The translations under genes and the position numbers were made by a program. Below the pieces are notes generated by a model, which was given only the letters and a program-made list of their open reading frames with translations, was not told where the DNA came from and ran no database searches. Below, piece by piece: positions 11,614 through 64,000 of a stretch of 64,000 nucleotides of DNA. The DNA is taken from NCBI GenBank assembly GCA_963555705.1, contig OY743183.1, positions 28,803,932 to 28,867,931 on the forward strand, written 5' to 3'. This stretch comes from Ligustrum vulgare (Eukaryota > Streptophyta > Magnoliopsida > Lamiales > Oleaceae). Position 1 is the stretch's first letter. Each line of letters opens with the position of its first letter.

Positions 11614-12900
11614 CCATCGAACATGCCTTTTGTTTAGCTTACCTTGTCCATTGAGATGCTTTAGTGACTCATGATCAGTATGTATGACAAATTCCTTTGG
11701 CCACAGATAATGCTACCATGTCTCCAAAGCACGAACAAGAGCATAAACCTCCTTTTCATAAGTAGGATAATTCAATGATGCTCCACTCAGCTTTTAACTG
11801 AAGAATGCAATTGGCCTTTTTTCTTGCATAAGAACAACTCCAATCCCTATTCCTGATGCATCACATTCAATCTCAAGTGTTTGGTTAGGTAATCCCCCAA
11901 TGAAATCCTACACTTTTCTTAACTATTTATGTGAGTAGTGCCGCTAGTGTACTAAAGTCTTTAACAAACCTCCTATAAAATCCAGCCAACCCGTGAAAGC
12001 TCTTAACCTCCGTAATACTTTTGGGAGTTTGCCACTCTTTGATAGCCCTAATTTTTTCCCCATCTACCTCAACACCATTAGAACAACAACAAATCCTAGA
12101 AAAATCACCTTTTATGCAAAAAAGTACGCTTTTTAAAGTTAACATATAGTTTCTCAGTTTTCAAAACTTCCAATACTGATCTTAAATGTTCAATGTGAGC
12201 ACCTAAGTCCTTACTATACACCAAAATGTCATCAAAGTATACCACAACAAATTTACCAATGTAAGCACGCAAAACATGGTTCATTAGTCTCATAAAAGTA
12301 CCAGGGGCATTAGAGAGACTGAATGGTATAACCATCTGTTCATATAAACCATACTTGGTTTTGAAGGCGGTTTTCCATTCATCACCTTCTTTCATGCGAA
12401 TTTAGTGATAGCCACTTTTGAGATCTATTTTACTAAAAAGACTTGCCTCATGCAACTCATCAAGCATATATCATTTAGCCTAGGTATGGGATGTCGATAC
12501 TTTACCGTGATATTGTTGATTGGTCTACAATCACGCACATCCTCCAAGTCCCATCCTTTTTGGGTACCAACAAGACCGGTACTGCACATGGGTCTCATGC
12601 TCTCCCTAACATAGTCCTTGCTTAACAGCTCCTCAAATTGCCTTTGTAGCTCCTTCGTCTCCTCTGGATTGCTCCTATAGGCTGGCCTGTTTGGGATGAC
12701 CGCTCCCGGCACAAAGTTAATTTGGTGTTCGATCCCACGAATAGGTGGCAGCCCACTAGGAATCTCATCGGGAAATAAATCTGCAAATTACTACAAAAGA
12801 GATACAGCTAAACTAGGGTGGGGTGGTTAGCTTCATCAAGTGCAAGGAAAGATTCCTTGTACATTTGCAAAATTACTGGCTTGTTTTCAAATATGGCTTT
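11550..12900 (-). pseudogene. pol: G2 reverse transcriptase and truncated RNase H
   Basis: 12,425-12,712 encodes the RT start (GAVIPNRPAYRSNPEE, LLSKDYVRESMRPMCS, DVRDCRPINNITVKYRHPIPRL). 12,105-12,395 encodes [30 protein letters not shown] and an intact catalytic YFDDILVYSKD. 11,927-12,145 encodes the RT/RNase H connection ([14 protein letters not shown]). Unlike G1, about 80 bases of RNase H are missing between KSVGFHW-like sequence and [10 protein letters not shown] near 11,900. Further stops lie near 11,715 and 11,795. The two sisters therefore decayed independently. Confidence 0.82.
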
Positions 12901-13029
12901 AGTAATCTCACTTTATTTTGCGTAGAAGCTCACTTTTGTTTTCTCTCATTTGTCTTTTCTGGCACTCTGTACACCCTCTCCTTTTTCTGAGATCGTGGTT
13001 CCAACTCTCTTTTGATCACTCAACTCTCA

Positions 13030-14832
13030 TTATTCTGGAATCGTGGTCCCAACTCTCTTCTGTTTACTCAACTCTCCTTTTTCTGGGAACTTGGTCCCAA
13101 CTCTCTTTTTCTCTTCCTCACTTTTTAGTTTTAATTGGTCCTCGTAGACTTGTTGTGATGACAAAGGCATAAGTTTGACATTTTTCCCATCCTTGGTGAA
13201 GGTGTATCTATTTTTATAACCATCGTGAATAACCTTCCTATCAAATTGCCACGGCCTGCCCAACAAGATGTGCCCCGCATGCTTGGGAACCACATCACAA
13301 ACTACTCCATCTTCATACTTTCCATTTGCAAGATCAATCACCACTTGCTTATTCACTTTAATCTCTGCCGACTCATTTAACCACTGTAGTTTGTAAGGCC
13401 TAGGGTGTTTTAGCACAAATAGGCACAATTTTTCCACAAGGTTAGTACTGAACACGTTCGTACAATTACCCCAATCAGTTATCAAACTACATACTTTGTT
13501 GTTCACAAAGCACCTAGTATGGAAGATATTTTCCCTTTGCTCACCCGACTCTTCCACCTTAACTTGAGTACTAAGGGTCATCCTAGTGACAAGTGATTTA
13601 GCTCCAGCGTAGTCCCCATCCTCACAATCACTAGCCTCTTCTAAAGCTGGCATATCCTTATACTCATCCTCTTCTTCCTTCTCATCCTCCGAACACAATA
13701 CCCCATCATGCACAATCAACACCCGCTTATTTGGACATTGTGAAGAGATATGTCCTAAACCTGTACATTTAAAACGTCTCATATCTCTACTTCTAGGAGT
13801 TTGAGAGTCAGAATTAGTTTTACCTTTGTTGGGTGGCTCCTCCTTTCCCTTTGGTGACTCGAATTTCCCTTTTTGCACAGCTCCATTTTTGAAATTCCCA
13901 CTCCATACAGGCTTCCCAAAAGAAGTAGAACATGTGGGAAATCTCGTTGTCCCCTTCCTTTTTAACTTCCTTTCCACCTTCATGGCCATATGTAGCATAT
14001 CCTCCAACTCGACATAATGCTGCAATTCAATAACGTTACTAATTTCCCTATTCAACCCACTTAGAAATCTGACCATGTTTTCTCTAATCATAGCCATTTC
14101 CATCTCTCTATGGTATTCCTCCACACCCCTATTACATTGAGAAAGGGTTTGTAATTTTTAGTAAATGTCCATGTAGTAATGGTTGGGTACAAACCTTTTT
14201 CTCATAAGGGGTTTCAACTCATCCCAAGTTTCAATTGGTCTCTCACGGTTCCTCCTTTTACTCGTTATCAATTGATCCCACCACACTATAACATAATCGG
14301 TAAATTCTACGACCGCCAATTTTACCTTTTTCGCCTCAGAATAATTATCACAGTAAAAAATCAATTCTACCCTTTTTTCCCATTCAAAATAAACCTCCAA
14401 ATTGCTTTTACCCTAGAATTGTGGAATTGACATTTTAATGATTCCAATACTCCCATCCATTTCATCTCTTTCCCTACGTTCATGCCTATATCCCCTTTCG
14501 CGTCTATCACCTCGATCTCTTCTTCTACCCAAACTGGCCATAGACATATCCCCACTATCACTATCACTTTCAAAATTCTCAACATTATCATTTCTAGATC
14601 CATGTCAAGGGTTAAAGCCATACCTTAGTGGTCTCCTCATATTGGGGAGTGTCTGTGGTTGCTCCTGACGCGGTTGAGTAGTGTCTGTAGCACGCGTTCC
14701 TATTGAATCATTAACTTTCCCCAACCTCGCATCCAATTTTGCTTCCCACTTCTCAAATTGTTTTTCCATCATGGCAAGGAGGTGAAATTGTTGGTTATCC
14801 TCCCATGTTGATGATGCGTCCTTCTGTGACAT
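13030..14832 (-). pseudogene. gag: G2 gag and protease, frameshifted
   Basis: Gag begins at the ATG ending at 14832 (MSQKDASSTWEDNQQFHLL, as in G1). It shifts frame at about 14,605 and again near 14,160. The last frame (13,030-14,124, 364 aa) carries the gag end, a zinc knuckle whose first cysteine is lost (RFKCTGLGHISSQC) and a protease whose active-site segment is altered (ITDWGNCTNV instead of IIDGGSCTNV). The acidic linker and the RVGT..PE repeats follow. Non-functional. Confidence 0.85.
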
Positions 14833-15465
14833 GATTAGTTATTTAAGGAAAAGAAAAGAAAATTTATATAATGATCATCACGTGTTTGTCACTCGTGTAT
14901 CACTCAACTCGGCCTTTTTCCTCTAATATGCTCACCACTCTTGCCTTTTACCTCTCTTTTCCCTTTTCTCTAGTTCTCAATGAACCAACCAAACTCGTTA
15001 AGGATTTAAACTCCGTGGAATTAACCCCAAAGCTCAAGGACAAGAATTGAACGAGAATACAACATTAATGGAAGAACGAATTGAAGATTTTCAAGAAGGT
15101 GATTTTCTTGAAATAGAAATTTTGGATTGTACGAACCAAGAAAGAATTTTAGCGTAGTAATGGACAATGAGAAACTATCAAAAATGTAGGAAATATTGTA
15201 AAAGATATCAAGAAATGTCTTTTTGAATTTGGAATTGTGTTCTTGATCTTGATTTCAATAATAATCTCTTTTTTTTTTTTTTTTTTGGGAATTTGTACTC
15301 TTTTTTTTTTTGCTAATCAAGAACAAGAATTAAAATTGCGACCAATCTTGAATTAGTGATTCAAGAAATTCAAGAATTGAATGAAATTTCAATAAAGGAA
15401 CAAAAGAAAAAATTAAAAAAAAAAATTAAAACAAGAAATATAGAAAGAATTGGATTTAGAGACTA

Positions 15466-15477
15466 GCTCTGATACCA
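15466..15477 (-). other. Primer binding site of G2
   Basis: GCTCTGATACCA on the + strand, i.e. a perfect TGGTATCAGAGC on the element strand, two bases from the LTR end. Confidence 0.88.
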
Positions 15478-15479
15478 GA

Positions 15480-16252
15480 TGATGTGATCCGTTATGGGGA
15501 TCACGGAGAACACGCAGAATTTAGACTCGAAAAGCTATAAAGCTCCAAATCCAATCGGTAGACGATAACAATGTAACCCCGATCTCACGACGCAAGAACC
15601 AGGGGTATATTAAACTCGAGACCCGTTACGATGCGGAGATAAGAATTACAAAGGGGAGAAAGCCACAGAACTTGTCTAATCCTTTGATAAGTTCAATTTG
15701 TTCATTAAGAACGAAGAAGAATAAGGGAATAACCCACATTTAATTATCAATAATCTCAAAGTTGTGTTTTCAATCAATGAAAGGTAACTAATAAAGAGTA
15801 TTATCATGAAAATAGGCCAAAACCGCAACATATGAGCCCAAAATGGAAAAAGAATTAAAAACGAGGAAAACCCTAAATATTATACCCACGCGATCATGCA
15901 GGCACCTCGGTAGAGATCGCGTGGAGTGGTCAAAATCTCTCGGGTCTCTTTTTCATTACATATTGCGATCGCGCTCCATTTTATACCACGCGGTCGCGTG
16001 GTTCAAATCTCCAACTCCTTAGTTTTGAACTTGATTCTCGGCCCAAATCACTTGTATCACCTTTGGCTCCTCTTCTATCATGTCATGAGTCAAAAGTAGA
16101 GCTTTTGGTCTTGGACTTGAATGCTCATCCACCCAAGTTTGCATAGATCCTTGCATTGCTTGTTTGATCTTCGTAGCCCTCAGCCTCGTTATTGATCCCC
16201 CCAGCACACATGCAACGAGTCCTCGCTCGTTGGGCCACTCCGGTACTCATCA
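15480..16252 (-). repeat. 5' LTR of G2
   Basis: 773 bases, TGATGTGATCC...GGTACTCATCA in + orientation. Contains CCACGCGGTCGCGTGG and GCGATCGCG clusters (about 15,890-16,000). Confidence 0.88.
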
Positions 16253-35060: not shown

Positions 35061-35979
35061 GATTTATGTACCAACAACAGATCGAATATGAGGCAATTAT
35101 TCTAGAGTTGGAATTATTGTTGGAATGGGATCAGAAAGGGGCAAATTTGTAGAGAGGGGGTTTCAATTTTATTAGCATCTACAAAAATATGGCACAAGCA
35201 AACGTTTGAACTTAATGACAAAGTAAACAAAACTTCATATGCATTAGGGGAACTGATGGCTTTCATGAAATCTCGGAAGGTAGATACGACCTTGGATGAA
35301 GAAGAAGAAATTTTAGTTGCCATGATGAATATAGGAATGAAGTTTGAAAATGAGAGTCGAGGGAAATAAACTGTGAAATCCTAAAGCGATAGCAATAAAA
35401 GGTAAAACTTTGGGGAAGAAAGACCACTCCTTTTATAGGGTAAATAAAAGAGGAAAAGTACTTAGTACTCGTTAGACCCCCCAAGTAATGGAATACGATC
35501 TTTTAGAAAATGAAACGCCAAATGAGGTCTAAAAGGTACCTTGTACTATCGTTTATATTTGCCTTATTTTTTTTCAAATGCATTAAAACACAATGTTAGG
35601 TCATGCAAATGCTTTGAGTGTGGCAAAATTAATGATTACACATTAATTGAGTCACATTTGGGGCAATTGTTAATACTAAAAGTACTCATTTCGGAGGTCC
35701 AATATGGAAGTTCAAAATATGAGAGCCCATCACAAATAATAAGACGATGTGGAAGAGTCTAGATGATTGGACGAATATAATGAATTCGGGCGATTGGGCT
35801 ATTAGACAAGATATAAGTAAAACGGTAGTTTTCACAATTCACCCCACAATCTAAGGAAGCATGTTGAAGACATTACGAACAGTTATCACAATGTGAACAA
35901 TTGGTGAAATCATTGGCAGTTGGTGCAATGCTAGTTGACGAGAATGTAGACACACTACAAGAAATCGGACCAACAGCGA

Positions 35980-38900
35980 TGTAGCGCCCCGAGTTCCGTA
36001 TACCCGATTCACTACGTCATTTTCTGTCTAAATTTTTCGAATAATATTTTTTTTGAAGAAATAATTGAAATTCATTTTTGGCAACATTAAATAAACTGTA
36101 ATGGCCGCTAAAATTGAAAACATTTATGAAACCATTTGAAATAGTAAATCGAACCATTAATATTGTAAAGAAATTGCCAATATCATAATTTCTCAAATAA
36201 ATGAACTTCTATAAATTATTCGATTGTTTGGAAAATACGGAAATCATTAACGTCAAACTTTCAACCGTTCAACGATTATTGCCACCATCATTCATCGCTC
36301 GCCACCGTCTCCGAAATCTGCAAAACTGTTAAAAAGTAGGGTGAGTATTTCATGGGGGAAATACTCAGTAGACTCATCGCAAATTAATTTAATTTATAAG
36401 ATGATTAAACACATAAATCCCGGCTCTTTATAAAACGGGCATTGATAGAGCTTCTTTATAAAACTGCTCTTGATAAAACTCATATTGTGCATTACAGCAC
36501 GGGACATATTTTACAAATCATAGGCTCTTTGAAAATAGCTCTTTGAAAACAGCTCTTTGAAAACCATATACTTATAAAAACATTTTAATTATGTCAAGCA
36601 TAATTTCTTTTGAAAGCATAACATAAGATAGGATTTAAATCCTCATAAACATAAATAGACACAAGAACTTTACCGAACTTAGGTGGCAAGAATTCTTATG
36701 CAGTAAAATCATAATAACAGTAAGTTTTCATCATAACATAGGATAATATCGAAATCCTCATAAACATAAGAATTTTACCGAACTTAGGTGGCAAGAATTC
36801 TTATGTAGTAAGTATACCAAGCATAATTTTCTGAAATTCATAGGGATCAATTGCATCATAACATAAGATAGGATCGAAATCCTCATAAACATATGCGACA
36901 GGAATTTTACCGAACTTAGGTGGTAAATCCTCATAAACATATGGAAAGATAGGAATTTTACCGAACTTCGTGGCAAATCCTCATAAACATAGGAGACACA
37001 AGAATGTTACCGAACTTAGGTGGCAAGAATTCTTATGTGTAGCGCTACTAAAACTCCGGTCCCCTTAACATATCATAACTTATCATATGGGACCCAAAAC
37101 AATCTTGGTAGATTGATTTCATAGCAATGATCCAAAAAAACATTTTCGTGAAGCATAGGGTATACTTACTTTTCGTAAAAACATAAAGTATATTTTCTTT
37201 TCATAAAAACATACTTACTTTTCATAACAACATAAGGTATATTTACCTTTCATAAAAACATACTTGTTTTTCTTAAAAATTGACTTTCACAAGTCACATG
37301 ACATTCATATGAAATCATAATTTAAATCAATTAATAAGTGCGAGTCTACCTCAAATCCGACGAGTGCAAAGTTGAGCGGGAATGATTTCAATTTCTTTAA
37401 ATTCTCCGTACGCTTCGTCTTTAGCCAATAAGTCACTTTAGTATATCGAATATATAGTTCAAAATGATAAATTATAATTTGAAGACTAAAATTGATGTTT
37501 TGAAAGTTGAGGGACTAAAATGAATACCTTTGAAAGTTCAGGGACTAAAATGAATACTTTTGAAACTTGAGCTTAAAATCAAATAAAGTAAATCAGCAGG
37601 GACTGAATAATAGATTTTAAAAAATGAAGGACTGATTAAACTCATTTAAAACTTAAGGGCTGAAATTGATAAGTTTAAAAGCTGAAAGGACTGAAATAAA
37701 ACCTTTTTTAAAACTTGAGGGGCTGATTTGAAATAACTTTAAAACTTTAAAAGGGCTGAAATAAACTATTCAAAGCTGTAGGGACTGATTTAAATCATTC
37801 AGAAAACGTAGGGACCAAAGTGCAAATTTCTGAAAATCAAAATAATTAAACATTTTATCTCTCTCTCTCTCTTCGATACAATCACAGACAGAGAGCGAAA
37901 AGCGAGAGGGAGGCGATCGGCGACTGGGAAGGGCGAGAGCTGGGGAAATCTGGTTTCTAACCGTCGACTCACCGGCGCAACACCGGCGGAACGTAGGAGT
38001 AAGGTGCGGCGAGGGATGGGATTGAAGTAGGTTAGGTTTGATGCGCGAAACCGAGGCTAAAGATTGAAGTTGGGTTCGTGATTTGGGTTTGGAATTCCGG
38101 CGAAGGGAGCGGCGCTTGAGGTAAGTAACTGGCTCCTTTGATTCTTGGGTTTTGATTTTGGTTTTGGGTGAGGATTTGGATGATTGATTTGGGACTAGGT
38201 TTGGAGATTCGGATATGGCGGATTTGAGGATGGCGAATTGGAATTGAGGACGGTTGTGATTAACATTGCAGTGGTGGTGGCTGTTTAACAGATCGGAGGT
38301 GAGTTGGAGATGGTTCTTGGCAGTGAGTGCAGAGGGTGTTGATGATGATGATGACGCTGATTCAATTGGTGATTGGATATGGTGCTGATATTGATGATGA
38401 ATTTGGTTTGTGTTCGATGATTGGTTTGAAGTTAGAAGATGGCTTGATGATGGTTTGATAATTTTTGGCTGGCTGCGTATGAGTTATAGTGTTGCAGTGA
38501 TCGATTGGATTCTTGGGTTGGCAGTGAACTTGGTTTGATTGTTGGTTTGGTTGAGTGGCTGCTTTTGGTGATGATAACAGTGGTTCCGGCAGTGGTGGTA
38601 TTGTGGCTGACCGGTGGTGACTGATTGAGGATTGGTTTGTTTGATTGAGCACTGGTGACTGGGGTGGTGGAGACTGTTGCTGCAAATGGGGTTGGTGATG
38701 ATGGACGGTGTTGGTTTGATTTGCAGATTGGAAATTGAGTTTGTTTTCTTGAAATTGTGTGGATTGATGATAATGGGAATGGCTGCGTGAGATGGTAGTG
38801 AAAGGTGGGAATGGAGACTGAATTATTACTTGAATGTGATTTGTGATGAAAGGGATGTTATAATGATGAATTGGAATGGTGGTAGGTGTAGTTGGTGAGA

Positions 38901-39609
38901 TGATGCTGGGTATTTGCTCTTGGCCGAGTGATGATTATGATGATAATGATGGTGTCTTGTGTGCCCATGTTGAAGATACTTTGGTGATGGTGTAGTGAAG
39001 TGGAAAGAGTGAAAAATAATAGAACATGTATATATCATCATTATGTTCTTGAACCATAATGATGGTTGTTTTTTTGGTGGACAAAGAAAAGGAAGGAGGA
39101 GAAAACGTGGGGGCTAAAAATGGAGTGTAAAGATGGAGTTTGCACATGGAAGGATGATGAAATTGTGTAGAGATTAGTTGGAAATGCTTTGGTGTTTGTA
39201 TAATGATATGGAATATGAAAATAGAAAATAGATATAAAATTTTATATATATAATGATGATGTTTTTATGTAAAGAATTGTACTAAAACTGATATATTTTG
39301 GACTGGAAATAAATTTGAGAATAAATAAATTTTGAGATAAAATCGAATTACGTATTTGGACTTGAAATAATTTGAATAAGGAAAATTGAGATATTTTAAT
39401 AAATTTGGAATTCAAAATGATTTTGAAAATAATACTTTGAGTAAATAATTAAAATAATATAATTTTAGAAATTCGGATTTTAATTTAAAATCGAACAAAT
39501 TCGATATTTCTTGACTTGGCTAGACGAATCCGTCGCGGCGTTAACTTCGACACAATTTTCTAAATATTAAAAATAATTATTTATTGCATAAAAATTCTGG
39601 ATCGCTATA
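35980..39609 (-). repeat. 3' LTR of K1
   Basis: 3,630 bases. In element direction it starts TATAGCGATCC and ends GGGGCGCTACA, so the start is TA rather than TG; the terminal 7 bases form TATAGCG/CGCTACA. Contains 60-80 base repeats (36,640-37,030), a series of 'agggactaaaatgaa' repeats (37,490-37,830) and a GC-rich part near 37,880-38,120. Confidence 0.9.
36640..37030. repeat. Tandem repeats inside the K1 LTR
   Basis: About five imperfect units of 'aacataagataggat..aatcctcataaacata..agaatttTaccgaacttaggtggcaagaattcttatg'. An identical array is in the other LTR (43,559-43,949). Confidence 0.8.
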
Positions 39610-40151
39610 ATCTTAGCTCCTTAAAATAATTTCGTCCTCGAAATTAAACTTACTTAATCTTATAATTTCTGAATACTTAATCAGAATCTCTTCTTCTTAT
39701 CATCGAATATTCTCAAAATAATCAAAACAATTCCTGAATATTTTCTCTACGTAAAATACCCAAACATATCAACATAATATCATCAACTTATCTTTCCAAT
39801 ATTTGTAACCCAAAATTCAGTAAACAAATATCTCCCAAAACTAAGATTCTATACTTAAATGTCACCACATTTCCTGCAAAGTATTTCTTTCACTTGTATA
39901 TACGTATGAATTCTGATTCAATACGGTACTCATTTTACTTTCCACGTATCATCACATTATACCAAGATTATCATTATTAAAACAAAATATCAGTACCCAT
40001 AATTCAAGAAAATATTCCAAATCTCCAATCAAATCTCCTTTATCGATAAAATTTAACAGCGCATTACTTCTTGTCTCCTCTTTTCATTAAAATAATCCTG
40101 CGCTTTCTTGCTGGACACAACATCACGCGGATTCACTCAGATCCTTTGCGC

Positions 40152-40161
40152 TTTTAAATAG
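40152..40161 (+). promoter_or_regulatory. TATA-like box of the NABP-like gene
   Basis: TTTTAAATAG, 33 bases before the ATG at 40,194. The distance leaves room for only a very short leader, so transcription may also begin elsewhere. Confidence 0.45.
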
Positions 40162-40193
40162 TTCATGCTGGGAAGAGGTTGAATCATCAAACA

Positions 40194-40745
40194 ATGGATA
40201 TCATTCTTTCTAACATTCGCAAGTATTATTCCAGTCTTCCTATGAATGATCTGAGAAAGATCTATAAAATAAGGCTCGAAAGATTGAGGTTGCTAATGGC
40301 TCATGATATTCCAGAAGATGTTCGCTGGTTGATAGAAGCAAAGGTTCGACTATCTGGTGAATTACCATCAACATTTCCAAAACATATGCCTGGTTTAGGC
40401 AAAAGCACGTTCGCAAAGAAACGAAGAGCAAAAAGACTGGGTGGTTGCTACAAATGTGCTCGTTGGAACTGTAATACACGTTGCAAATCAGTAGGATATT
40501 CTTCTACTAATCGGGATGATAAAATCGAATTCATAAAGGGTGGACTGAGTAAGGAGTCTTTGGATGATATTCGACTGACTCTTGAGACGCACCCAAGTGG
40601 TTATGTGCAACGTGAACTTCTCTCCTTATACGCTCAGTTTAACGAGGACAAAAATCGTTATAGTCTCCAAAATATAATATCGAAAGATCCTGTTTGCCAG
40701 TCTGTTTTACAAAATGAGGCTTCTGGCAGTTCAGCAATGATATAA
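40194..40745 (+). CDS. Carlavirus-like cysteine-rich nucleic-acid-binding protein (intact, K1 cargo)
   Basis: 183 aa from ATG 40,194 (the frame extends upstream only to a TTG; the homologue at 8699 supports this ATG). Seen: N-terminal helix-rich part with two short repeats of charged residues, GLGKSTF followed by an Arg/Lys cluster KKRRAKR (~88-94), four cysteines in C-x2-C-x4-C-x3-C (CYKCARWNCNTRC, ~98-110), then GYSS and a conserved-looking IEFIKGG...SKESLDDIRLTLETHP. Known: Carla_C4 cysteine-rich proteins of carlaviruses join an Arg-rich cluster to a zinc finger followed by a similar 'GxSY...FI..G' stretch and bind nucleic acid. Their cysteine spacing is longer between the second and third Cys. 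Inferred: an endogenous virus-derived gene, possibly domesticated. A host zinc-finger protein of similar design is the alternative. An A-rich run of 13 lies 51 bases after the stop. Confidence 0.62.
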   Translation: MDIILSNIRKYYSSLPMNDLRKIYKIRLERLRLLMAHDIPEDVRWLIEAKVRLSGELPSTFPKHMPGLGKSTFAKKRRAKRLGGCYKCARWNCNTRCKSVGYSSTNRDDKIEFIKGGLSKESLDDIRLTLETHPSGYVQRELLSLYAQFNEDKNRYSLQNIISKDPVCQSVLQNEASGSSAMI

Positions 40746-40970
40746 GGTAAATCTTTTAAAATATTTTGCTGCTTTCTTTCACGCGTTTTGGAAATAAAAA
40801 AAAAAAATTTCCTTTCTCGAGGTTTGATAAAGCTGGAAATAAAATATTTAATCGCCGAAAGGTGACAGCCTCGATACGATAAAAATATTCAAAAGTGGGC
40901 TGATTTTGTCAAAAGTAAATCTTTACTTTTTCAGAATCAATCAAAAACAGTAAATTTTTTTTTTTTCCGG

Positions 40971-40980
40971 CTTTAAATAG
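40971..40980 (+). promoter_or_regulatory. TATA-like box of LOG
   Basis: CTTTAAATAG, 75 bases before the LOG ATG, nearly the same string as before the neighbouring gene. This suggests separate promoters. Confidence 0.5.
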
Positions 40981-41054
40981 CCAAACATATTTCATAGTTC
41001 AGGCATCCCAAAATCACATCTTCTTCGTAAGTTTTCCCTTCTTTACTATCAAAG

Positions 41055-41708
41055 ATGGAAGCACCAAAACTTCGACAGATCAAAACTATTTGTGTATTTT
41101 GTGGATCAAAAGTAGGGAAAGGCTTCGGTTATCTAGAAGCGGCTGTAGATCTTGGAAAGAAACTGGGGGAAAAAGGTATCACTCTTGTGTATGGGGGTGG
41201 TAGCAGTGGTCTAATGGGTTGTGTTTCCCAATCTGCTCTTGCAGAGAAATCAAAAGTAATCGGTGTTATACCTGTCCCTTTGGTAGATGTTGCAGGCAAA
41301 ACACGAGGGCATGAAGTTCAAACTCTATCCATCCATGAACGCATAACTTGTATGCTATATGGTTCTGATGCCTTTATAGCCCTGCCCGGAGGTTTTGGTA
41401 CCTTAGAAGAAATCTTTAACATTACCTCGTGGGCTCAACTAGATCTCCATACTAAGCCTATTGGGCTTCTGAATGTTAACAATTTCTTTGATGGTTTGTT
41501 AACCTTTCTTGATTATGCTGTGGAACAGGGATTCATCTCTCCATTTTCCAGAAGGCTTCTTATTTCTGCTCCTACTATTGATGAACTACTGGATAAGCTG
41601 CAGTCATATATCTCAATACAAGATCCAGCAGGAGTTAAGATAGATTGGTCGCAAGGAAGGGGAATCAAGCGAAAATGGAGTCCGGTTAATGTAAACTTAA
41701 CTCTTTGA
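41055..41708 (+). CDS. LOG: LOG-type cytokinin riboside 5'-monophosphate phosphoribohydrolase, intronless
   Basis: 217 aa, full family length in one exon. Known: LOG enzymes release active free-base cytokinin from its riboside 5'-monophosphate, in cytosol and nucleus. Seen: Rossmann-type start VFCGS (14-18), nucleotide-binding GGGSSGLMG (47-55), Arg96 in HERITCM where most LOGs have HxRKxxM, and the signature PGGFGTLEE (111-119) with the catalytic glutamate region intact. Then TSWAQL, KPIGLLNV and a short basic tail (GIKRKW). Most plant LOG genes have several introns, so this is a retrogene or one of the intronless LOG-like paralogues. It lies 309 bases after the NABP-like stop on the same strand, in antisense to K1. 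The K-to-I change beside Arg96 makes substrate use uncertain. Confidence 0.9.
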   Translation: MEAPKLRQIKTICVFCGSKVGKGFGYLEAAVDLGKKLGEKGITLVYGGGSSGLMGCVSQSALAEKSKVIGVIPVPLVDVAGKTRGHEVQTLSIHERITCMLYGSDAFIALPGGFGTLEEIFNITSWAQLDLHTKPIGLLNVNNFFDGLLTFLDYAVEQGFISPFSRRLLISAPTIDELLDKLQSYISIQDPAGVKIDWSQGRGIKRKWSPVNVNLTL

Positions 41709-41718
41709 ATCTTAGAAT

Positions 41719-41932
41719 AGGTGGGGGTAGAGTACGGAGTATTCTCACTCTCGAGACACCCCTCCATTTACTAGGATTTCCTTAATGTTTAAATCTTGTG
41801 TGTACTTCAAAGATTCCAGGTGGTAGATTACGGAGTATTCTTACTCTCGAAACACACCTCTTTGAAGGTTTCTTTATTTCCTCAAAAGATCAGAGGTGGT
41901 AGGATACGGCTACTCTGGAAACACATCTCTCA
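41719..41932 (+). repeat. Three imperfect repeats downstream of LOG
   Basis: Units of about 70-90 bases with 'aggtggtaga.tacggagtattct.actctcgaaacacacctct' at about 41,719, 41,817 and 41,892. In the presumed 3' UTR of LOG. Function unknown. Confidence 0.65.
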
Positions 41933-42883
41933 TTCTGAGGATCCTTCCATGTTTTTCTCTTATGCTTTCATGTGTTTCATGTATTTCCTTTCCAGTGTGA
42001 CTCTTGTGTGTTCTCCTTATGAGAAAATAATAAAATCTCTGTTATCATCTACTAAATCTCGTTTGATGTAAATGAACTTGCATGTCTAAACTTAATTCCT
42101 TTAGTAGATGCTTATCATATTATGCTCTTAATTCCAAATGATAAAATTCTGGATAGAGTCTCCCTTGTAATTTGGACTTATCCAAACCATAAGCATACTT
42201 CATAACTCACAATAATAAATAACTCCACATTTGATCACAGCGATCTAAAAATATTGAAAACGATTCCAACACTTCAATATCATCAAAATATCCCATAATT
42301 CAATTCATAATTCCTCAACATAGAAATTTCAAATCATATTTTTCAATATCACAATATTACTTCCTTTCATACCTTAATTGGCTCAAAAGTTACTCATACT
42401 TATAAATATATGCCATAAATCATATTCCCAAAATTTATTCACAAAGCCAAACTTCATAATAAATTTCTCTTCAACATAGAGGCATAATAAATTAACTCAA
42501 CATAATATCCATTACTTAATTCTCAATAAAATCATATTATTCCCATTATGCTCAACACTCGTTTTCTTTAAAAAATTTCTCATAATCATACATTAAAGCA
42601 TATAAGTTATGACAAAGCATAACAACATCATTATTTTCGAAGAAATACATTCTTATTTCTCATAAATCATAAGTATCCGAAATACTCTTCATTCTTTCTC
42701 ATAAATCAATAAAATGAGTATTCGAAATACTGAAATAACTTTAAACATTATAAACTTCTTTACCTCGGAGTTGGTGGAGCGAAATGATGGCAGTGGCAAT
42801 CTTCATAAATAAAAATCTTATAATGGAAAATATTTCTTAAAATTCTTTTTGAAAATTTTACCAGTCTACAGAAACGCAGACTA
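41933..42883. other. AT-rich K1 interior, no gene seen
   Basis: No recognisable coding sequence between the LOG 3' region and the primer site; a retroelement leader would be expected here on the minus strand. Confidence 0.45.
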
Positions 42884-42895
42884 GCTCTGATACCA
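42884..42895 (-). other. Primer binding site of K1
   Basis: GCTCTGATACCA on + is TGGTATCAGAGC on the element strand, three bases from the LTR. Initiator Met-tRNA type. Confidence 0.9.
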
Positions 42896-42898
42896 ACT

Positions 42899-45800
42899 TG
42901 TAGCGCCCCGAGTTCCGTATACCCGATTCACTACGTCATTTTCTGTCTAAATTTTTCGAATAATATTTTTTTTGAAGAAATAATTGAAATTCATTTTTGG
43001 CAACATTAAATAAACTGTAATGGCCGCTAAAATTGAAAACATTTATGAAACCATTTGAAATAGTAAATCGAACCATTAATATTGTAAAGAAATTGCCAAT
43101 ATCATAATTTCTCAAATAAATGAACTTCTATAAATTATTCGATTGTTTGGAAAATACGGAAATCATTAACGTCAAACTTTCAACCGTTCAACGATTATTG
43201 CCACCATCATTCATCGCTCGCCACCGTCTCCGAAATCTGCAAAACTGTTAAAAAGTAGGGTGAGTATTTCATGGGGGAAATACTCAGTAGACTCATCGCA
43301 AATTAATTTAATTTATAAGATGATTAAACACATAAATCCCGGCTCTTTATAAAACGGGCATTGATAGAGCTTCTTTATAAAACTGCTCTTGATAAAACTC
43401 ATATTGTGCATTACAGCACGGGACATATTTTACAAATCATAGGCTCTTTGAAAATAGCTCTTTGAAAACAGCTCTTTGAAAACCATATACTTATAAAAAC
43501 ATTTTAATTATGTCAAGCATAATTTCTTTTGAAAGCATAACATAAGATAGGATTTAAATCCTCATAAACATAAATAGACACAAGAACTTTACCGAACTTA
43601 GGTGGCAAGAATTCTTATGCAGTAAAATCATAATAACAGTAAGTTTTCATCATAACATAGGATAATATCGAAATCCTCATAAACATAAGAATTTTACCGA
43701 ACTTAGGTGGCAAGAATTCTTATGTAGTAAGTATACCAAGCATAATTTTCTGAAATTCATAGGGATCAATTGCATCATAACATAAGATAGGATCGAAATC
43801 CTCATAAACATATGCGACAGGAATTTTACCGAACTTAGGTGGTAAATCCTCATAAACATATGGAAAGATAGGAATTTTACCGAACTTCGTGGCAAATCCT
43901 CATAAACATAGGAGACACAAGAATGTTACCGAACTTAGGTGGCAAGAATTCTTATGTGTAGCGCTACTAAAACTCCGGTCCCCTTAACATATCATAACTT
44001 ATCATATGGGACCCAAAACAATCTTGGTAGATTGATTTCATAGCAATGATCCAAAAAAACATTTTCGTGAAGCATAGGGTATACTTACTTTTCGTAAAAA
44101 CATAAAGTATATTTTCTTTTCATAAAAACATACTTACTTTTCATAACAACATAAGGTATATTTACCTTTCATAAAAACATACTTGTTTTTCTTAAAAATT
44201 GACTTTCACAAGTCACATGACATTCATATGAAATCATAATTTAAATCAATTAATAAGTGCGAGTCTACCTCAAATCCGACGAGTGCAAAGTTGAGCGGGA
44301 ATGATTTCAATTTCTTTAAATTCTCCGTACGCTTCGTCTTTAGCCAATAAGTCACTTTAGTATATCGAATATATAGTTCAAAATGATAAATTATAATTTG
44401 AAGACTAAAATTGATGTTTTGAAAGTTGAGGGACTAAAATGAATACCTTTGAAAGTTCAGGGACTAAAATGAATACTTTTGAAACTTGAGCTTAAAATCA
44501 AATAAAGTAAATCAGCAGGGACTGAATAATAGATTTTAAAAAATGAAGGACTGATTAAACTCATTTAAAACTTAAGGGCTGAAATTGATAAGTTTAAAAG
44601 CTGAAAGGACTGAAATAAAACCTTTTTTAAAACTTGAGGGGCTGATTTGAAATAACTTTAAAACTTTAAAAGGGCTGAAATAAACTATTCAAAGCTGTAG
44701 GGACTGATTTAAATCATTCAGAAAACGTAGGGACCAAAGTGCAAATTTCTGAAAATCAAAATAATTAAACATTTTATCTCTCTCTCTCTCTTCGATACAA
44801 TCACAGACAGAGAGCGAAAAGCGAGAGGGAGGCGATCGGCGACTGGGAAGGGCGAGAGCTGGGGAAATCTGGTTTCTAACCGTCGACTCACCGGCGCAAC
44901 ACCGGCGGAACGTAGGAGTAAGGTGCGGCGAGGGATGGGATTGAAGTAGGTTAGGTTTGATGCGCGAAACCGAGGCTAAAGATTGAAGTTGGGTTCGTGA
45001 TTTGGGTTTGGAATTCCGGCGAAGGGAGCGGCGCTTGAGGTAAGTAACTGGCTCCTTTGATTCTTGGGTTTTGATTTTGGTTTTGGGTGAGGATTTGGAT
45101 GATTGATTTGGGACTAGGTTTGGAGATTCGGATATGGCGGATTTGAGGATGGCGAATTGGAATTGAGGACGGTTGTGATTAACATTGCAGTGGTGGTGGC
45201 TGTTTAACAGATCGGAGGTGAGTTGGAGATGGTTCTTGGCAGTGAGTGCAGAGGGTGTTGATGATGATGATGACGCTGATTCAATTGGTGATTGGATATG
45301 GTGCTGATATTGATGATGAATTTGGTTTGTGTTCGATGATTGGTTTGAAGTTAGAAGATGGCTTGATGATGGTTTGATAATTTTTGGCTGGCTGCGTATG
45401 AGTTATAGTGTTGCAGTGATCGATTGGATTCTTGGGTTGGCAGTGAACTTGGTTTGATTGTTGGTTTGGTTGAGTGGCTGCTTTTGGTGATGATAACAGT
45501 GGTTCCGGCAGTGGTGGTATTGTGGCTGACCGGTGGTGACTGATTGAGGATTGGTTTGTTTGATTGAGCACTGGTGACTGGGGTGGTGGAGACTGTTGCT
45601 GCAAATGGGGTTGGTGATGATGGACGGTGTTGGTTTGATTTGCAGATTGGAAATTGAGTTTGTTTTCTTGAAATTGTGTGGATTGATGATAATGGGAATG
45701 GCTGCGTGAGATGGTAGTGAAAGGTGGGAATGGAGACTGAATTATTACTTGAATGTGATTTGTGATGAAAGGGATGTTATAATGATGAATTGGAATGGTG

Positions 45801-46528
45801 GTAGGTGTAGTTGGTGAGATGATGCTGGGTATTTGCTCTTGGCCGAGTGATGATTATGATGATAATGATGGTGTCTTGTGTGCCCATGTTGAAGATACTT
45901 TGGTGATGGTGTAGTGAAGTGGAAAGAGTGAAAAATAATAGAACATGTATATATCATCATTATGTTCTTGAACCATAATGATGGTTGTTTTTTTGGTGGA
46001 CAAAGAAAAGGAAGGAGGAGAAAACGTGGGGGCTAAAAATGGAGTGTAAAGATGGAGTTTGCACATGGAAGGATGATGAAATTGTGTAGAGATTAGTTGG
46101 AAATGCTTTGGTGTTTGTATAATGATATGGAATATGAAAATAGAAAATAGATATAAAATTTTATATATATAATGATGATGTTTTTATGTAAAGAATTGTA
46201 CTAAAACTGATATATTTTGGACTGGAAATAAATTTGAGAATAAATAAATTTTGAGATAAAATCGAATTACGTATTTGGACTTGAAATAATTTGAATAAGG
46301 AAAATTGAGATATTTTAATAAATTTGGAATTCAAAATGATTTTGAAAATAATACTTTGAGTAAATAATTAAAATAATATAATTTTAGAAATTCGGATTTT
46401 AATTTAAAATCGAACAAATTCGATATTTCTTGACTTGGCTAGACGAATCCGTCGCGGCGTTAACTTCGACACAATTTTCTAAATATTAAAAATAATTATT
46501 TATTGCATAAAAATTCTGGATCGCTATA
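42899..46528 (-). repeat. 5' LTR of K1
   Basis: 3,630 bases, apparently identical to 35,980-39,609, including every internal repeat. This implies a very recent insertion (or gene conversion or assembly duplication). Confidence 0.9.
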
Positions 46529-48653
46529 AGCGAAGACAGAAGTCGTCTCTAAAAGCCTAAAAATCGTCTCTATAGATCAATAGCGACGACATTGTCGTCT
46601 CTAATAGTCGTCGCTTTAGGCCCGTAGCTGAAAGTCAATAGCGATGACACCGTCGTCTCTATTTCTTCGGAAGATATTGCAACGACAATTAGCGACGACA
46701 TAGTCGTCCCTAATAACGAAAAATATTTTATTAATAATTTATTAATTTAACTTGATCCGATCCGAACCATTTTGAACTCGGCCCGAATTTGAACTCAACC
46801 CGAACCTCGAGTATTTATTTTTAATTCATATGATGATAGTGTTGGCTTGGAGACTCGAACTCTTGACCAAGTAGTTGGGTGAGTGATGTCCCAACCGTTC
46901 ACGCAAATAAATTCTTGTGTCTTATTTTGTTTTAAGTAATATATAATAGTTAACTTTAACGAATCACATTTTAATAATAATAGTATATAAACATTTGTTC
47001 CAACACATTGACTTCAATATTATTTTTATAAAAATCGAAAAGCAAAAAAAAAAAAAAAAAATATCGAACCTATAGAGACGACATAGTCGTCGCAATAGGG
47101 TATGTTTTTAGACGACAAAAAAAGTCGTCGCTAATACTCAGGTATTAGAGACGACTTGTTTTTGTCGTCGCAACTTTTTGAGACGACAAAAAAAGTCGTC
47201 CCTAATACCTGAGTATTAGAGACGATTTGTTTTTGTCGTCGCAAATTTTTGAGACGACGTATTAGAGACGACTTTTTTTGTCGTCGCTGATTGCTGAGTA
47301 TTAGAGACGACTTTTTTTGTCGTCGCTAATTTTCGTCGCTGTTGGTCCGATTTCTTGTAGTGACAACTCAAATTCGACGATCATGATAAGTTATTTAGTG
47401 CAATGAATTGAAGGACGATTATACAAGGTAGTGGATATCAGTTGGCTATAAAATCAAGGCGGTAAATTAGAAATTCAAAGTAGTAGACAATTAGTAGAAT
47501 TTGTATATACTATAGAAAATTAGACATTTAGAAGGACCAACAAATAAAAACTCTTAAATAAAGATATAATTTTCTTATCTTAGATTTTATTAGAAGTTCC
47601 TTAATTTAATTTGCGTGTTTGCGCCCTTTAGACATCTTGTAACTTAAATTTTTCTAGTGCAAAACACACAATTTTTGAACTTTATCTCAAGAAGTTTGTC
47701 TTTTACAATTTTGTTTAATATCTTTTTAATTATTAGTACAAACGAAACAACATATCACCAAACACAGGATGTAAACAAAATTTCACGCTACTTTAATTCC
47801 TCTTGATATCTTGTCATGAAAATCTGCATCAATTTTGTAAAAGCTTTACTAGAGCCCACATCTTCTCGCTGTTTAAATATTCATTAGTCAATTATGGGCC
47901 ATGGCTCTTTAGTTTATTTGACAATTCCTGACTTTTATAAGTTTTATTACATTATTCAATTTTCACTTTTTCCATCTCAAATGATTCCAAGACAAAAAAT
48001 AAAATAAAGATGATACGTATAGGGTTTCTACAAAAGGAGAACCCTAAACCACCCATGATGGCAATAGTTGTAAATGGAAGTCCACTGGTCAGGATTGCTC
48101 ATATATGATAGTTTTATTTAAATCACATCATTAAAAATTATCAACTAATTAAATACATATCAGGTAGCTCATTCCTATTGATTCATCAATCTGCATTCTT
48201 ATAGATTTCTCATTGATTGGTACCGAACAAGAGTCTTGTGTATGACATGACAGCTTAATTTTCAAGACGACATCGACATGTAATGGTTACTATTGTACAG
48301 AATGTGTGAAATATCTATATATGGCGGGGTATTTTACCCAAAAAGCAATTTATGAAATATTTATAGAGAGCAGGCAAATAAAAATGAATAGAACGAAATA
48401 TATTATGAGTTTGATATATTATTATTAAAATTGCAACTCAATTTGATATTGTTATGATTTGTAGAAAGGATACTCAAATCATCGAATACAGTAATTTCAA
48501 AATAACATTTATAAACAACATCCAATAACTAATAAGGGTTTAATTAAAAAATATCGATGACTTCTTTTAGTTGTTTTTCTTTTTTTGAATAATTATATTC
48601 TCACCACACTTTAATAGCAATACAATATTTCAAATGCAATTAAGGGAAATATG

Positions 48654-60500: not shown

Positions 60501-60586
60501 AGAAAAAGAATCTAATTACTCCTAAATTTTGGGAATCTTGTAAATCTGTGTTTTTTTTAGATATGAATGACATTCTTAAATTGGAC

Positions 60587-62173
60587 AATATAAATAGATG
60601 ATCCATTAACAACATAAATTACTCAGGATGGTTTTCATTTTACCTTGACACCGCTTTAGGATTCATCGTCAAACTGCCGAGGAAAAAATTTGAAGCCTAC
60701 CACACGACCACTTACTCTGCAGCAATTTATAACTTTGATCTCATGGTGTGCAAACATAGTCTATACAGTTCTGTAAGTTGGAGGAAAGAGAGAAGTCAAA
60801 AGTATCCAGTCAAGAGGGTAAGTATTTCACCTCTGAGTCTCTTGATCCTAGCAAGCTCCTATCATTTATATTAGATGATCCAATATAAATAATTCTGCAA
60901 ATATCAGATAATAATACACAAAAATATCAGTAAATTCTTTTTAGATTCAACTAATCGAATTGATGATTCAGGCTATAAAAAAGATAAGGTCTAAGGAGAT
61001 AATCTATAAGAAGTCTAAAAAGAGAAACACCCTAAAACCGATGTAACATTAAGCTACATAATCTGAGGTTGATTATACACCTTCACAAAAATTTTCCCAA
61101 ATTTCGAAAATTACCATTCCTAAATCAAAAATGAAACTAAACATTTCAATTACACTAATTAGTTCATAAATTTTGAATCTGAAAAATTAATCTACATAGA
61201 CTAAAAATCTGAAATTATACATGGGGTTCATATATATACATCAATATATACTTACTACTCCATATATACATACAACAATTCAATGTGTGTGTTGTGTGTT
61301 GTGTGTGTGTGGGTCCGTCAGTGTGTGCATGCGGGTGTGTTGTGTCTTGCGAGTGTGTGGGGTTGCATTTGGTGTGTGCGTAGAAAGAGAAGGGGAAGAG
61401 GAGCCCGGCCTCCGGCGGGGTGGTGGTTGGCGGGATGAAGTCGCCGAGGAAGGAGTTGAGGCAGGCGGAACCGAGGGCGAGAGACAGAGATGCGAAGAGA
61501 GAGGGACGGAATGAAGAGAGAAAGGGGTTCGTTCTGAGGCAATTAGATTAGGTTAGATTTTGTATGCGCATTATTTGTAGAGAAAGCAAAATTTTCTTGT
61601 AGTGATAAAGCATTTAAATAAAGGCAAAATTCATACATAGATGTCAAAATTCATACATAGATGTTTGGGTAGTGAGAGTTTTAATTGTCACTAAATTATA
61701 AATAAATTATATTTTTATTTTCTTTTGTATGGATATAATAATTTGTGACATTTGGAACAATTATAAAATTTAGTAATGATTCTAAATGTAACTAAAATTT
61801 GGCAACGTTTTTTAAACGTTGCAATAGCTGCCTATTGCAACGTTTTAAAAACGTTGCCAAAACTTAATTTGAGTGTTGCAAAAATTCCAACTTATTGCAA
61901 CAATTTTTAAATGTTGCAAAAAGGGATAAATCTGAAATATTTATATCAAATGCAACATTCAATTACAAAATGTTACGATAGACCACTTTTAGCAACATTC
62001 AATTAGCAAATGTTGCCATTTAAATGTTGCAAAAGTCCATTTTTGTAGTAGTGAATCCAACTCTTCAATAGGATTTTTACAAGAACACAATCTCATAAGT
62101 TGTCATTAACTACAATTTTCTTCCTTATTCAATTATCCAATTGTCACCTTATTCAGTTATCAAATAATTATCC
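60587..62173. repeat. Tandem duplication unit 1 (1,587 bp)
   Basis: Starts AATATAAATAGATGATCC; includes the right third of D2 to 62,053 and 120 bases of C2 LTR flank. Unit 2 is 62,174-63,753. Confidence 0.9.
61285..61545. other. GT-microsatellite and GC-rich segment in D2
   Basis: TGTGTG repeats followed by a GC-rich stretch (CCTCCGGCGGGGTGGTGG, AAGTCGCCGAGGAAGGAG). Copied in unit 2 at 62,873-63,114. Possibly a captured first exon or leader; no protein recognised in the frames on either strand. Confidence 0.45.
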
Positions 62174-63753
62174 AATATAAATAGATGATCCATTAACAAC
62201 ATAAATTACTCAGGATGGTTTTCATTTTACCTTGACACCGCTTTAGGATTCATCGTCAAACTGTCGAGGAAAAAATTTGAAGCCTACCACACGACCACTT
62301 TCTCTGCAGCCATTTATAACTTTGATCTCATGGTGTGCAAACATAGTCTATACAGTTCTGTAAGTTGGAGGAAAGAGAGAAGTCAAAAGTATCCAGTCAA
62401 GAGGGTAAGTATTTCACCTCTGAGTCTCTTGATCCTAGCAAGCTCCTATCATTTATATTAGATGATCCAATATAAATAATTCTGCAAATATCAGATAATA
62501 ATACACAAAAATATCAGTAAATTCTTTTTAGATTGAACTAATCGAATTGATGATTCAGGCTATAAAAAGGATAATGACTAAGGAGATAATCTATAAGAAG
62601 TTTAAAAAGAGAAAGATCCTAAAACCGATGTAACATTAAGCTACATAATTTGAGGTTGATTATACAGCTTCACAAAATTTTTCCCAAATTTCGAAAATTA
62701 CCATTCCTAAATCAAAAATGAAACTAAACATTTCAATTACACTAATTAGTTCATAAATTTTGAATCTGAAAAATTAATCTACATAGACTAAAAATCTGAA
62801 ATTATACATGGGGTTCATATATATACATCAATATATACTTACTACTCCATATATACATACAACAATTCAATGTGTGTGTTGTGTGTGTGTGGGTCCGTCA
62901 GTGTGTGCATGCGGGTGTGTTGTGTCTTGCGAGTGTGTGGGGTTGCGTTTGGTGTGTGCGTAGAAAGAGAAGGGGAAGAGGAGCCCTACCTCCGGCGGGG
63001 TGGTGGTTGGCGGGCTGAAGTCGCCGATGAAGGAGTTGAGGCAGGCGGAACTTAGGGCGAGAGACAGAGATGCGAAGAGAGAGGGACGGAATGAAGATAG
63101 AAAGGGGTTCGTTCTGAGGCAATTAGATTAGGTTAGATTTTGTATGCGCATTATTTGTAGAGAAAGCAAGATTTTCTTGTAGTGATAAAGCATTTAAATA
63201 AAGGCAAAATTCATACATAGATGCCAAAATTCATACATAGATGTTTGGGTAGTGAGAGTTTTAATTGTCACTAAATTATAAATAAATTATATTTTTATTT
63301 TCTTTTGTATGGATATAATAATTTGTGACATTTGGAACAGTTATAAAATTTAGTAATGATTCTAAATGTAACTAAAATTTGGCAACGTTTTTTAAACGTT
63401 GCAATAGGCTGCCTATTGCAACATTTAAAAAACGTTGCCAAAACTTAATTTGAGTGTTGCAAAAATTCAGACTTATTGCAACAATTTTTAAATGTTGCAA
63501 AAATGGATAAATCTGAAATATATATATCAAATGCAACATTCAATTACAAAATGTTGCGGTAGACCACTTTTAGCAACATTCAATTAGTAAATGTTGCCAT
63601 TTAAATGTTGTAAAAGTCCATTTTTGTAGTAGTGAATCCAACTCTTCAATAGGATTTTACAAGAACACAATCTCATAAGTTGTCATTAACTACAATTTTC
63701 TTCCTTATTCAATTATCCAATTGTCACCTTATTCAGTTATCAAATAATTATCC
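62174..63753. repeat. Tandem duplication unit 2 (1,580 bp)
   Basis: Near-identical to unit 1, with scattered substitutions and small indels (for example 10 bases missing in the GT repeat near 62,875). It contains a second D2 right end finishing at 63,634 with AAT after it. Confidence 0.9.
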
Positions 63754-64000
63754 AATATAAATAGATTATCCATTAACAACATAAATTACTCAGGATGGTT
63801 TTCATTTTACCTTGACACCGCTTTAGGATTCATCGTCAAACTGCCGAGGAAAAAATTTGAAGCCTACCACACGACCACTTTCTCTGCAGCCATTTATAAC
63901 TTTGATCTCATGGTGTGCAAACATAGTCTATACAGTTCTGTAAGTTGGAGGAAAGAGAGAAGTCAAAAGTATCCAGTCAAGAGGGTAAGTATTTCACCTC
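63754..64000. repeat. Tandem duplication unit 3 (runs off the window)
   Basis: Repeats the unit start (AATATAAATAGATTATCC...) to the window end. Confidence 0.88.

Follow-up and report, generated by a model that had tools for sequence, protein, structure and literature searches.

Antisense ORFs (aORF-3R) that lie towards the 3' LTR and are kept in most copies, like those of the element described here, have been described in plant LTR elements, including Grande (gene23), RIRE2, Retand (ORF4), and PvRetro13 (accessible parts of PMC7264820 and PMC11963269). According to the accessible part of PMC7264820, the encoded proteins lack clear similarity to other proteins except for SMC and transposase-28 domains, and resemble neither viruses nor other TEs. 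According to the same text, it is unknown what the antisense genes of plant LTR elements do and where they come from. The aORF-3R elements carry gag-pol. LARD-type elements have long LTRs, no gag-pol, a high copy number, and a non-coding interior.

Element K1, located at 35980-46528 of the window (the whole 64-kb stretch of Ligustrum DNA analysed) and flanked by TSD copies, has features of both. Like the LARD-type elements, it combines long LTRs and many copies with the absence of gag-pol, but its interior holds two selected genes. Like the aORF-3R elements, it has antisense and conserved ORFs. However, pol is absent, so there is no pol-adjacent position to read. The proteins also differ, since one K1 protein belongs to a virus family and the other is a hormone enzyme. 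K1 probably belongs to a multicopy, non-autonomous family of Ty3/gypsy type in which two antisense accessory genes are conserved as a pair.

Structure of element K1

Two direct LTRs, a TSD, a primer site, and a purine tract identify K1 as an LTR retrotransposon (Table 1). Direct comparison of the LTRs revealed zero differences. The primer-binding site TGGTATCAGAGC, which we take to be of the Met-tRNA type, reads on the minus strand 3 nt inside the right LTR, and K1 therefore runs on the minus strand. On the element strand, the LTR termini are TA...CA, the usual form being TG...CA. The 12-nt motif TTCGAGGACGAA is followed by a short spacer and then by the purine tract AAGGAGCTAAGAT, which is short. 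Both long ORFs of the 3,289-bp interior are antisense to the element.

No gag or pol was detectable in K1. In tblastn with six gag/pol pieces from the window, the best E value was 0.034 (a Copia RT piece), and the Gypsy gag/pol pieces reached only 0.41. Two further interior ORFs gave zero Pfam matches, and Rfam matched nothing in 35900-46600 at the gathering score. Without detectable gag and pol, K1 does not qualify as an autonomous Ty3/gypsy element. The first-pass annotation had described two identical 3,630-bp LTRs, the TSD AGCGA and a Met-type primer site at the borders, no gag-pol, and two intact antisense genes; all of this is borne out, and both ORFs are open.

Table 1. Features of K1 and of the older NABP copy, in window positions
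Feature	Position	Strand	Remarks
Older NABP copy and spacer up to the LOG start codon	8658-9480	+	78% nucleotide identity; one stop codon
Left TSD copy AGCGA	35975-35979	.	Read from sequence
3' LTR (left on + strand)	35980-39609	-	3,630 bp; matches right LTR exactly
Purine tract AAGGAGCTAAGAT (minus-strand reading)	39610-39622	-	Adjoins 3' LTR; sequence reading
Stretch upstream of NABP	39623-40193	+	Putative antisense promoter; diversity 0.021 for 39610-40193
TTCGTCCTC, portion of the pol-end motif	39631-39639	+ (coordinates)	
NABP-like ORF	40194-40745	+	183 aa; Pfam Viral_NABP and Carla_C4
NABP-LOG spacer	40746-41054	+	40889-41058 matches older in-window copy (71.7%)
LOG ORF	41055-41708	+	217 aa; PGGFGTLEE present; C-terminal tail KRKWSPVNVNLTL predicted disordered
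Leader side, just inside primer site	41709-42883	.	no gag found; 42010-42459 among best-conserved parts
Primer-binding site TGGTATCAGAGC	42884-42895	-	3 nt inside right LTR
5' LTR (right on + strand)	42899-46528	-	3,630 bp
Right TSD copy AGCGA	46529-46533	.	Read from sequence

The NABP-like and LOG proteins

K1 NABP scores above the curated Pfam cut-offs of both Viral_NABP (30.9 vs 23 bits) and Carla_C4 (26.8 vs 20.9), which cover residues 16-120 and residues 65-97 only, respectively. Searches found 352 homologues by sequence and 649 by profile, the best 120 being listed each time. In a family alignment of 24 members, 20 match Viral_NABP and 22 match Carla_C4 at E <= 0.001. These profile matches assign K1 NABP to the family of cysteine-rich, nucleic-acid-binding proteins of carlaviruses, a family of viral or mobile proteins, and by analogy with that family it may be a nucleic-acid binder or silencing suppressor. 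The predicted structure gave no viral match, the model being poor (pLDDT 61).

These scores would also fit an origin from a carlavirus-like RNA virus, a piece of which became endogenous and was later carried by an LTR element, and the cucumber genome is known to contain a betaflexivirus replicase-like sequence (accessible part of PMC3136472). We regard this origin as rather unlikely. Among the tested interior ORFs, Pfam recognises no further viral gene, the neighbouring gene is a plant-type LOG, and the NABP family is large in plants. Furthermore, two NABP scans of viral contigs found none, although that collection may contain few plant RNA viruses. As a remote origin of NABP, a carlavirus-like virus may nevertheless have been involved, with transfer in either direction; the carlavirus p12 gene may have come from such elements, or the reverse.

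K1 LOG gave a family match of 1.3e-33 and matched structure entry 2a33 at 1.6e-57. It contains PGGFGTLEE, in which P111, G113, G115, T116, and E119 are constant across 18 rows, unlike G112; PGGxGTxxE is presumably the LOG family motif. Family match and motif place K1 LOG among the LOG cytokinin riboside 5'-monophosphate phosphoribohydrolases, the activity being predicted. In a comparison of LOG with viral contigs, three matches of 29-47% were seen.

Many relatives carry LxLxL at the C-terminus, which we take to be an EAR-like (EAR-type) repression tail. Within the last 14 aa, it occurs in 92 of the 120 listed LOG relatives, which are not independent (many are from Reevesia), vs 3 of 1,695 control windows from the same proteins. 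K1 LOG itself ends in VNVNLTL (VxVxLxL), a weaker form that departs from strict LxLxL. In the LOG tree, 27 of 118 rows are without LxLxL, including K1, its nearest relative P0121, and two shortened Arabidopsis fragments, and this absence is scattered, requiring 17 label changes. Basic clusters are present in 105 of the 120 listed relatives, a count made without a control.

Copies, selection and age of the gene pair

The genome search yielded 40 scored interiors, K1 included, which were the best of 3,686 first-look candidates. They are 96-100% identical, and 37 of the 40 cover the query to its end, starting at base 1 or 4. Nineteen other copies were examined, among them at least nine of the ten best-ranked ones. 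In these, NABP is open in 19/19, LOG in 18/19, and both together in 18/19. Each interior is flanked by long direct repeats, with LTR variants of its own; the LTR pairs are 99.6-100% alike across the 2,209-3,653 bp of repeat found. The K1 LTR was matched in full length in four copies (L012, L014, L016, and L036) and partially in the rest. An own 5-bp TSD was found in 14/19, and none was seen in the remaining five. Since the copies were drawn from the top of the candidates, their intactness and identity are biased upward; synonymous and nonsynonymous counts should be less affected. The first-pass annotation had called K1 a young element that spreads the gene pair and had proposed a genome search with the interior. 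The outcome agrees with it: the two LTRs are identical in K1 and nearly or fully so within each of the other copies, and K1 is not alone, with at least 40 interiors present.

Copies whose interiors are 96-100% alike can carry unrelated U3 stretches of about 1.5 kb (16 LTRs compared). Gene capture in U3 was considered and rejected. Instead, we read the difference as rapid turnover of low-complexity sequence, because all ten stretches viewed are rich in C on the element strand.

Among 20 copies, the LOG changes are 18 synonymous and 3 nonsynonymous, one of the latter being a stop (p = 2.6e-8), and the NABP changes are 9 and 9 (p = 0.018), the neutral nonsynonymous share being 75%; both p values are relative to a neutral count in which transitions are given a weight of 2. 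Between K1 NABP and the older in-window copy, dN is 0.12 and dS is 1.08 (dN/dS ~0.11). Mean pairwise diversity is 0.005 in NABP and 0.008 in LOG vs 0.021-0.022 in the pre-NABP region and the spacer. Low diversity alone is no proof of coding constraint, because diversity in the non-coding 41709-42898 is about as low (0.006) as in the ORFs. Purifying selection acts on both genes; the evidence is strong for LOG and, over the older split, for NABP, and modest for NABP among recent copies.

The near-identical LTR pairs and the conserved leader would also be expected if the ORFs were passengers in copies too young for decay. This is improbable in view of the excess of synonymous changes in LOG, the nonsynonymous share of NABP below neutral, and the omega across the older NABP split. 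Selection could also act through the plant, which would then maintain NABP and LOG as a domesticated pair; LOG proteins regulate cytokinin activity in plants (accessible part of PMC9289625), and a host benefit is conceivable. We give little credence to such domestication. The open-gene copies are many and often have their own TSD, many similar LOG loci occur in Reevesia and Populus, and element-level selection is the simpler account of multiple open copies.

The older in-window copy keeps the gene order as far as the LOG start codon. Its LOG body was not found anywhere in the window, and element B, one of two Gypsy elements of the window (A and B), starts at that point. Three Orobanche gene models (P0017, P0018, and P0022) contain both domains, fused, and homologues of NABP and of LOG are spread across several eudicot orders. 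The LTR-element setting was observed in the Ligustrum window and genome, whereas copies in other species are known as genes or proteins rather than seen directly inside LTR elements. Coinciding contig sizes were dropped as proof of pairing, since the eight coincidences, a weak set, compare with a mean of 2.5 and a maximum of 7 for shifted lengths. From these sequence comparisons, the NABP-LOG pair appears to have long belonged to the element family, under selection, rather than to be fresh host cargo.

The earlier claim that a recent insertion took up two complete host genes consequently does not stand. Plant LTR elements do capture host genes, and captured genes are usually in sense to gag-pol (accessible part of PMC7264820), whereas the K1 pair is antisense. 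LOG enzymes form a plant family, and neither K1 ORF is interrupted, as a recent transduction by a single LTR element would have it. However, the older copy with dS ~1, the eudicot homologues, the viral-type NABP family, and the purifying selection make this very unlikely, and the Arabidopsis LOGs At2g37210 and At5g11950 are set apart from the other tree rows by a branch of 0.78. Duplication of the LTR during assembly, which zero differences over 3,630 bp could suggest, is hardly credible given the 19 other loci with flanking repeats, LTR variants, and, in 14, TSDs of their own.

Mobilisation, proposed function and known systems

As a member of a non-autonomous family, K1 would depend on proteins supplied by another element. 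The motif TTCGAGGACGAA also precedes the 3' LTR of elements A and B, and element B shares with K1, in addition, 18 identical nt starting at the primer site. Element A contains Gypsy gag and RNase H, element B contains integrase, and SH3_Tf2-1 is found in both; the tested pieces of A and B gave no chromodomain match. Mobilisation of K1 in trans, as proposed in the first-pass annotation, fits this match of primer-site flank and pol-end motif to a pol-bearing Gypsy element of the window. The likeness is a motif resemblance at the ends, K1 itself being without pol, and the Tekay/Del chromovirus lineage named in that annotation is at most a candidate. The autonomous partner was not found: the single genome search, which lists K1-like copies only, included no autonomous element with K1-like LTRs.

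We infer that K1 derives from a larger element through loss of gag-pol. It would retain the antisense accessory-gene block, which other plant Gypsy elements have in the interval from pol to the 3' LTR, together with the cis signals (LTRs, primer site, leader, and purine tract), the leader 41709-42883 possibly serving in packaging. A related autonomous element would supply the proteins that package and copy the sense RNA. NABP and LOG would be expressed from the opposite strand, probably via a promoter between the 3' LTR and NABP, and would raise the element's own success. The protein functions that we propose are tentative. NABP, like its cysteine-rich carlavirus counterpart, would regulate by binding nucleic acids or would suppress silencing, and LOG, with a nuclear, corepressor-type tail in many relatives, would release active cytokinin; together they would drive host cells to a dividing, permissive state. 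More speculatively still, the two might form a host-manipulation module. The relative of carlavirus p12 would target silencing or transcription in the nucleus. LOG, likewise nuclear, would make cytokinin locally while recruiting a corepressor of the TOPLESS type through its basic and LxLxL tail. Dividing cells would favour transposition and access to the germ line, and a gag-pol-less parasite would have kept and amplified the module.

The function of the pair is directly testable, because the families are recognisable, both genes are under purifying selection, and many near-identical open copies exist. Cytokinin release, silencing suppression, and corepressor binding are suitable assay readouts. 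It is difficult to see why an element without gag-pol would keep accessory genes if these did not benefit the copy carrying them.

LOG within Gypsy elements, as in K1, is already in print. Gypsy elements with a YgdH (LOG) domain occur in Citrus and, under a looser filter, in Populus (accessible part of PMC9289625, citing Steinbauerova et al. 2011). For these, that part mentions no NABP partner, tail motif, or gag-pol-less amplifying form, and PF01623 and PF05515 have 0 occurrences in the main text. The NABP-LOG pair is without a report that we found; a search covering mostly non-subscription papers returned neither the pair nor NABP in a plant element. An extra enzyme gene that is also found in RNA viruses, an AlkB RNA demethylase ORF, occurs in Ogre-type elements of orchids; unlike K1, according to the same accessible part, these elements have gag-pol, a single extra ORF, and a different enzyme. 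The carlavirus cysteine-rich protein, or NABP (chrysanthemum virus B p12), shares Carla_C4 and Viral_NABP with K1 NABP. The latter has 183 aa, whereas p12 is a 12 kD protein, and the K1 gene lies in plant DNA, in antisense orientation to an LTR element. K1 NABP concretely connects an accessory protein of plant RNA viruses with a mobile-element protein.

Structure and genomic copies of K1

The LTR element K1 has a 3,289-bp interior. On each side stands a direct repeat of 3,630 bp, and the two repeats show zero letter differences. To judge from its elements and the relatives of its proteins, the genome is that of a plant. The first-pass annotation had described LTRs of this length without visible difference, a target-site duplication (TSD) and two open antisense genes, and all of these hold in the sequence (see table). 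Since the primer site lies on the minus strand near the right LTR, K1 reads right to left. A commonly used substitution rate in rice is 1.3e-8 per site and year. At this rate, zero differences over 3,630 bp suggest that K1 was inserted less than roughly 30,000 years ago. The sequence adjoining K1 on the right (46529-47331) contains many GTCGTC/GACGAC units, in part in tandem (47105-47331), and a direct repeat of about 1.8 kb with 97.5% identity is found at 60586-64000.

Features of K1 and its neighbours (window positions)
Feature	Position	Strand or detail
Gypsy element A	about 553-6795	gag PF03732
Older NABP copy with spacer	8658-9480	
Gypsy element B	about 9482-16252	integrase
K1 3' LTR	35980-39609	minus
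NABP-like open gene	40194-40745	strand opposite to K1
Spacer	40746-41054	between NABP and LOG
LOG open gene	41055-41708	strand opposite to K1
Leader	41709-42883	just inside primer site
K1 5' LTR	42899-46528	minus
Primer site TGGTATCAGAGC		minus; 3 nt inside right LTR
Purine tract and motif TTCGAGGACGAA		K1 end opposite to primer site
TSD AGCGA		both sides of K1

The search of the 1.385-Gb genome with the K1 interior, proposed in that annotation, scored at least 40 copies (K1 included) with 96-100% identity, a lower bound given that first-look candidates numbered 3,686. Full-span interiors, running from query base 1 or 4 to its end, make up 37 of these 40. For inspection, 19 of the 39 other scored copies were fetched, together with two stretches of one tandem array. 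NABP is open in all 19 and LOG in 18, the exception being copy L018 with a stop at codon 64. Within each copy, the two LTRs share 99.6-100% identity across the stretch of repeat that was found. A 5-bp TSD stands beside TGTAGCGC in 14 of the 19 (the right end of L042 is one base short), and none was found in the remaining five. An assembly artefact is therefore ruled out, and the NABP-LOG pair travels with the element, as had been supposed.

Six interiors lie in tandem at G000:C14:29531752-29569299, each repeat unit of 6,855 bp comprising an LTR and an interior. Neighbouring interior pairs with similar spacing on C10 and C12 also point to tandem LTR-interior arrays. The U3 part of the LTR (LTR positions about 1768-3290; 37747-39269 and 44666-46188) is largely unrelated between subfamilies with nearly the same interiors, while the LTR's other half and its outer end are common to the subfamilies. 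In the ten U3 variants looked at, this part is C-rich on the element strand.

Selection on the gene pair and its age

Diversity was measured in 20 copies taken from those most like K1. The mean pairwise value is 0.005 for NABP and 0.008 for LOG, compared with 0.021 for the region before NABP and 0.022 for the spacer. At 0.006, the leader comes close to the two ORFs in conservation; this, like the choice of copies near K1, is a caveat to the reading of selection. Non-coding positions 42010-42459 are among the most conserved interior parts (0.001-0.004) and are a candidate packaging or leader signal. Changes among the copies are 18 synonymous and 3 nonsynonymous in LOG (expected nonsynonymous share 0.73; p = 2.6e-8) and nine of each kind in NABP (0.75; p = 0.018). 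Between K1 NABP and the older copy in the window (8699-9193), dN is 0.12 and dS is 1.08. This copy has one stop and keeps the NABP-spacer order up to the LOG start, where B begins; its LOG body was not found in the window. Judged from these substitution counts, dN/dS and gene order, the pair predates K1 by far and is kept by selection.

The NABP and LOG proteins

K1 NABP scores 30.9 bits against Viral_NABP and 26.8 bits against Carla_C4, above the Pfam cut-offs of both. In an alignment of 24 rows (23 different proteins, P0045 in two rows), 20 rows match Viral_NABP and 22 match Carla_C4. Homologues number 352 at E <= 0.001 and 649 with a profile; the best 120 of each were inspected, and the organism-named matches listed are plants (Orobanche, Striga, Populus, Xanthoceras, Acer, and Rhamnella). 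The viral relative is described as able to bind nucleotides in both single- and double-stranded form, to work in plants as a transcription factor with effects on cell size and proliferation, and to suppress silencing (PMC9650830).

K1 LOG, a clear match to its family, has a predicted fold that is confident except at the ends, above all in the final 19 residues. Among the best 120 of 7,230 relatives, many are 'hypothetical' proteins from numerous loci in Reevesia, Populus, Xanthoceras, and others. The only known host genes in the 118-row tree, At2g37210 and At5g11950 (which we take to be LOG3 and LOG8), share a 0.78 branch beside three Xanthoceras proteins. LxLxL, the EAR repression motif, falls within the last 14 residues in 92 of the 120 relatives; of 1,695 control windows taken from these proteins, 3 contain it. 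In 105 of the relatives the final 25 residues include a basic cluster, a count made without a control. The K1 tail, VxVxLxL, is a weaker form of the motif, and the tail label requires 17 changes on the tree. A LOG relative with 47% identity is also encoded on a 16-kb IMG/VR viral contig (L001:3376-3783).

Possible helper elements and comparison with known elements

The K1 family is mobile, with intact ORFs and selection on its gene pair. In agreement with the first-pass annotation, no gag-pol was detected in K1 by tblastn with six window pieces (gag, protease, RNase H, two from the integrase region, and one Copia RT; best E 0.034, Copia piece), and two further interior ORFs are without Pfam match. 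A and B lie in inverted orientation and are about 90% alike; no obvious TSD was seen at the two flanks of B. Starting at the primer site, B and K1 are identical over 18 nt, and A and B, like K1, carry TTCGAGGACGAA before the 3' LTR, a pattern consistent with a related Gypsy element mobilising K1. The LTRs of B are about 770 bp, and the K1 LTR has no other match within the 64-kb window, so B is only a candidate partner. The copies scored in the genome search are all K1-like, with no autonomous partner among them. K1 may have derived from a larger element through loss of gag-pol and would be packaged in trans. An antisense promoter for NABP and LOG may lie near 39610-40193, and the two proteins could manipulate the host.

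Three Orobanche gene models (P0017, P0018, and P0022) contain both domains. Matches to NABP and LOG on equal-sized contigs, eight cases with two long ones (4,511 and 8,723), are only suggestive of pairing elsewhere, as a shifted-size control gave a mean of 2.5 and a maximum of 7. No publication on the pairing was found in the literature on NABP in plants or elements or on LOG in elements, as far as its accessible parts go. Antisense ORFs between pol and the 3' LTR are, according to a review, relatively frequent in plant LTR elements; the review assigns them no known function and reports no resemblance to viruses (PMC7264820). Gypsy elements with a LOG (YgdH) domain are reported from Citrus and, under a looser filter, also from Populus (PMC9289625).
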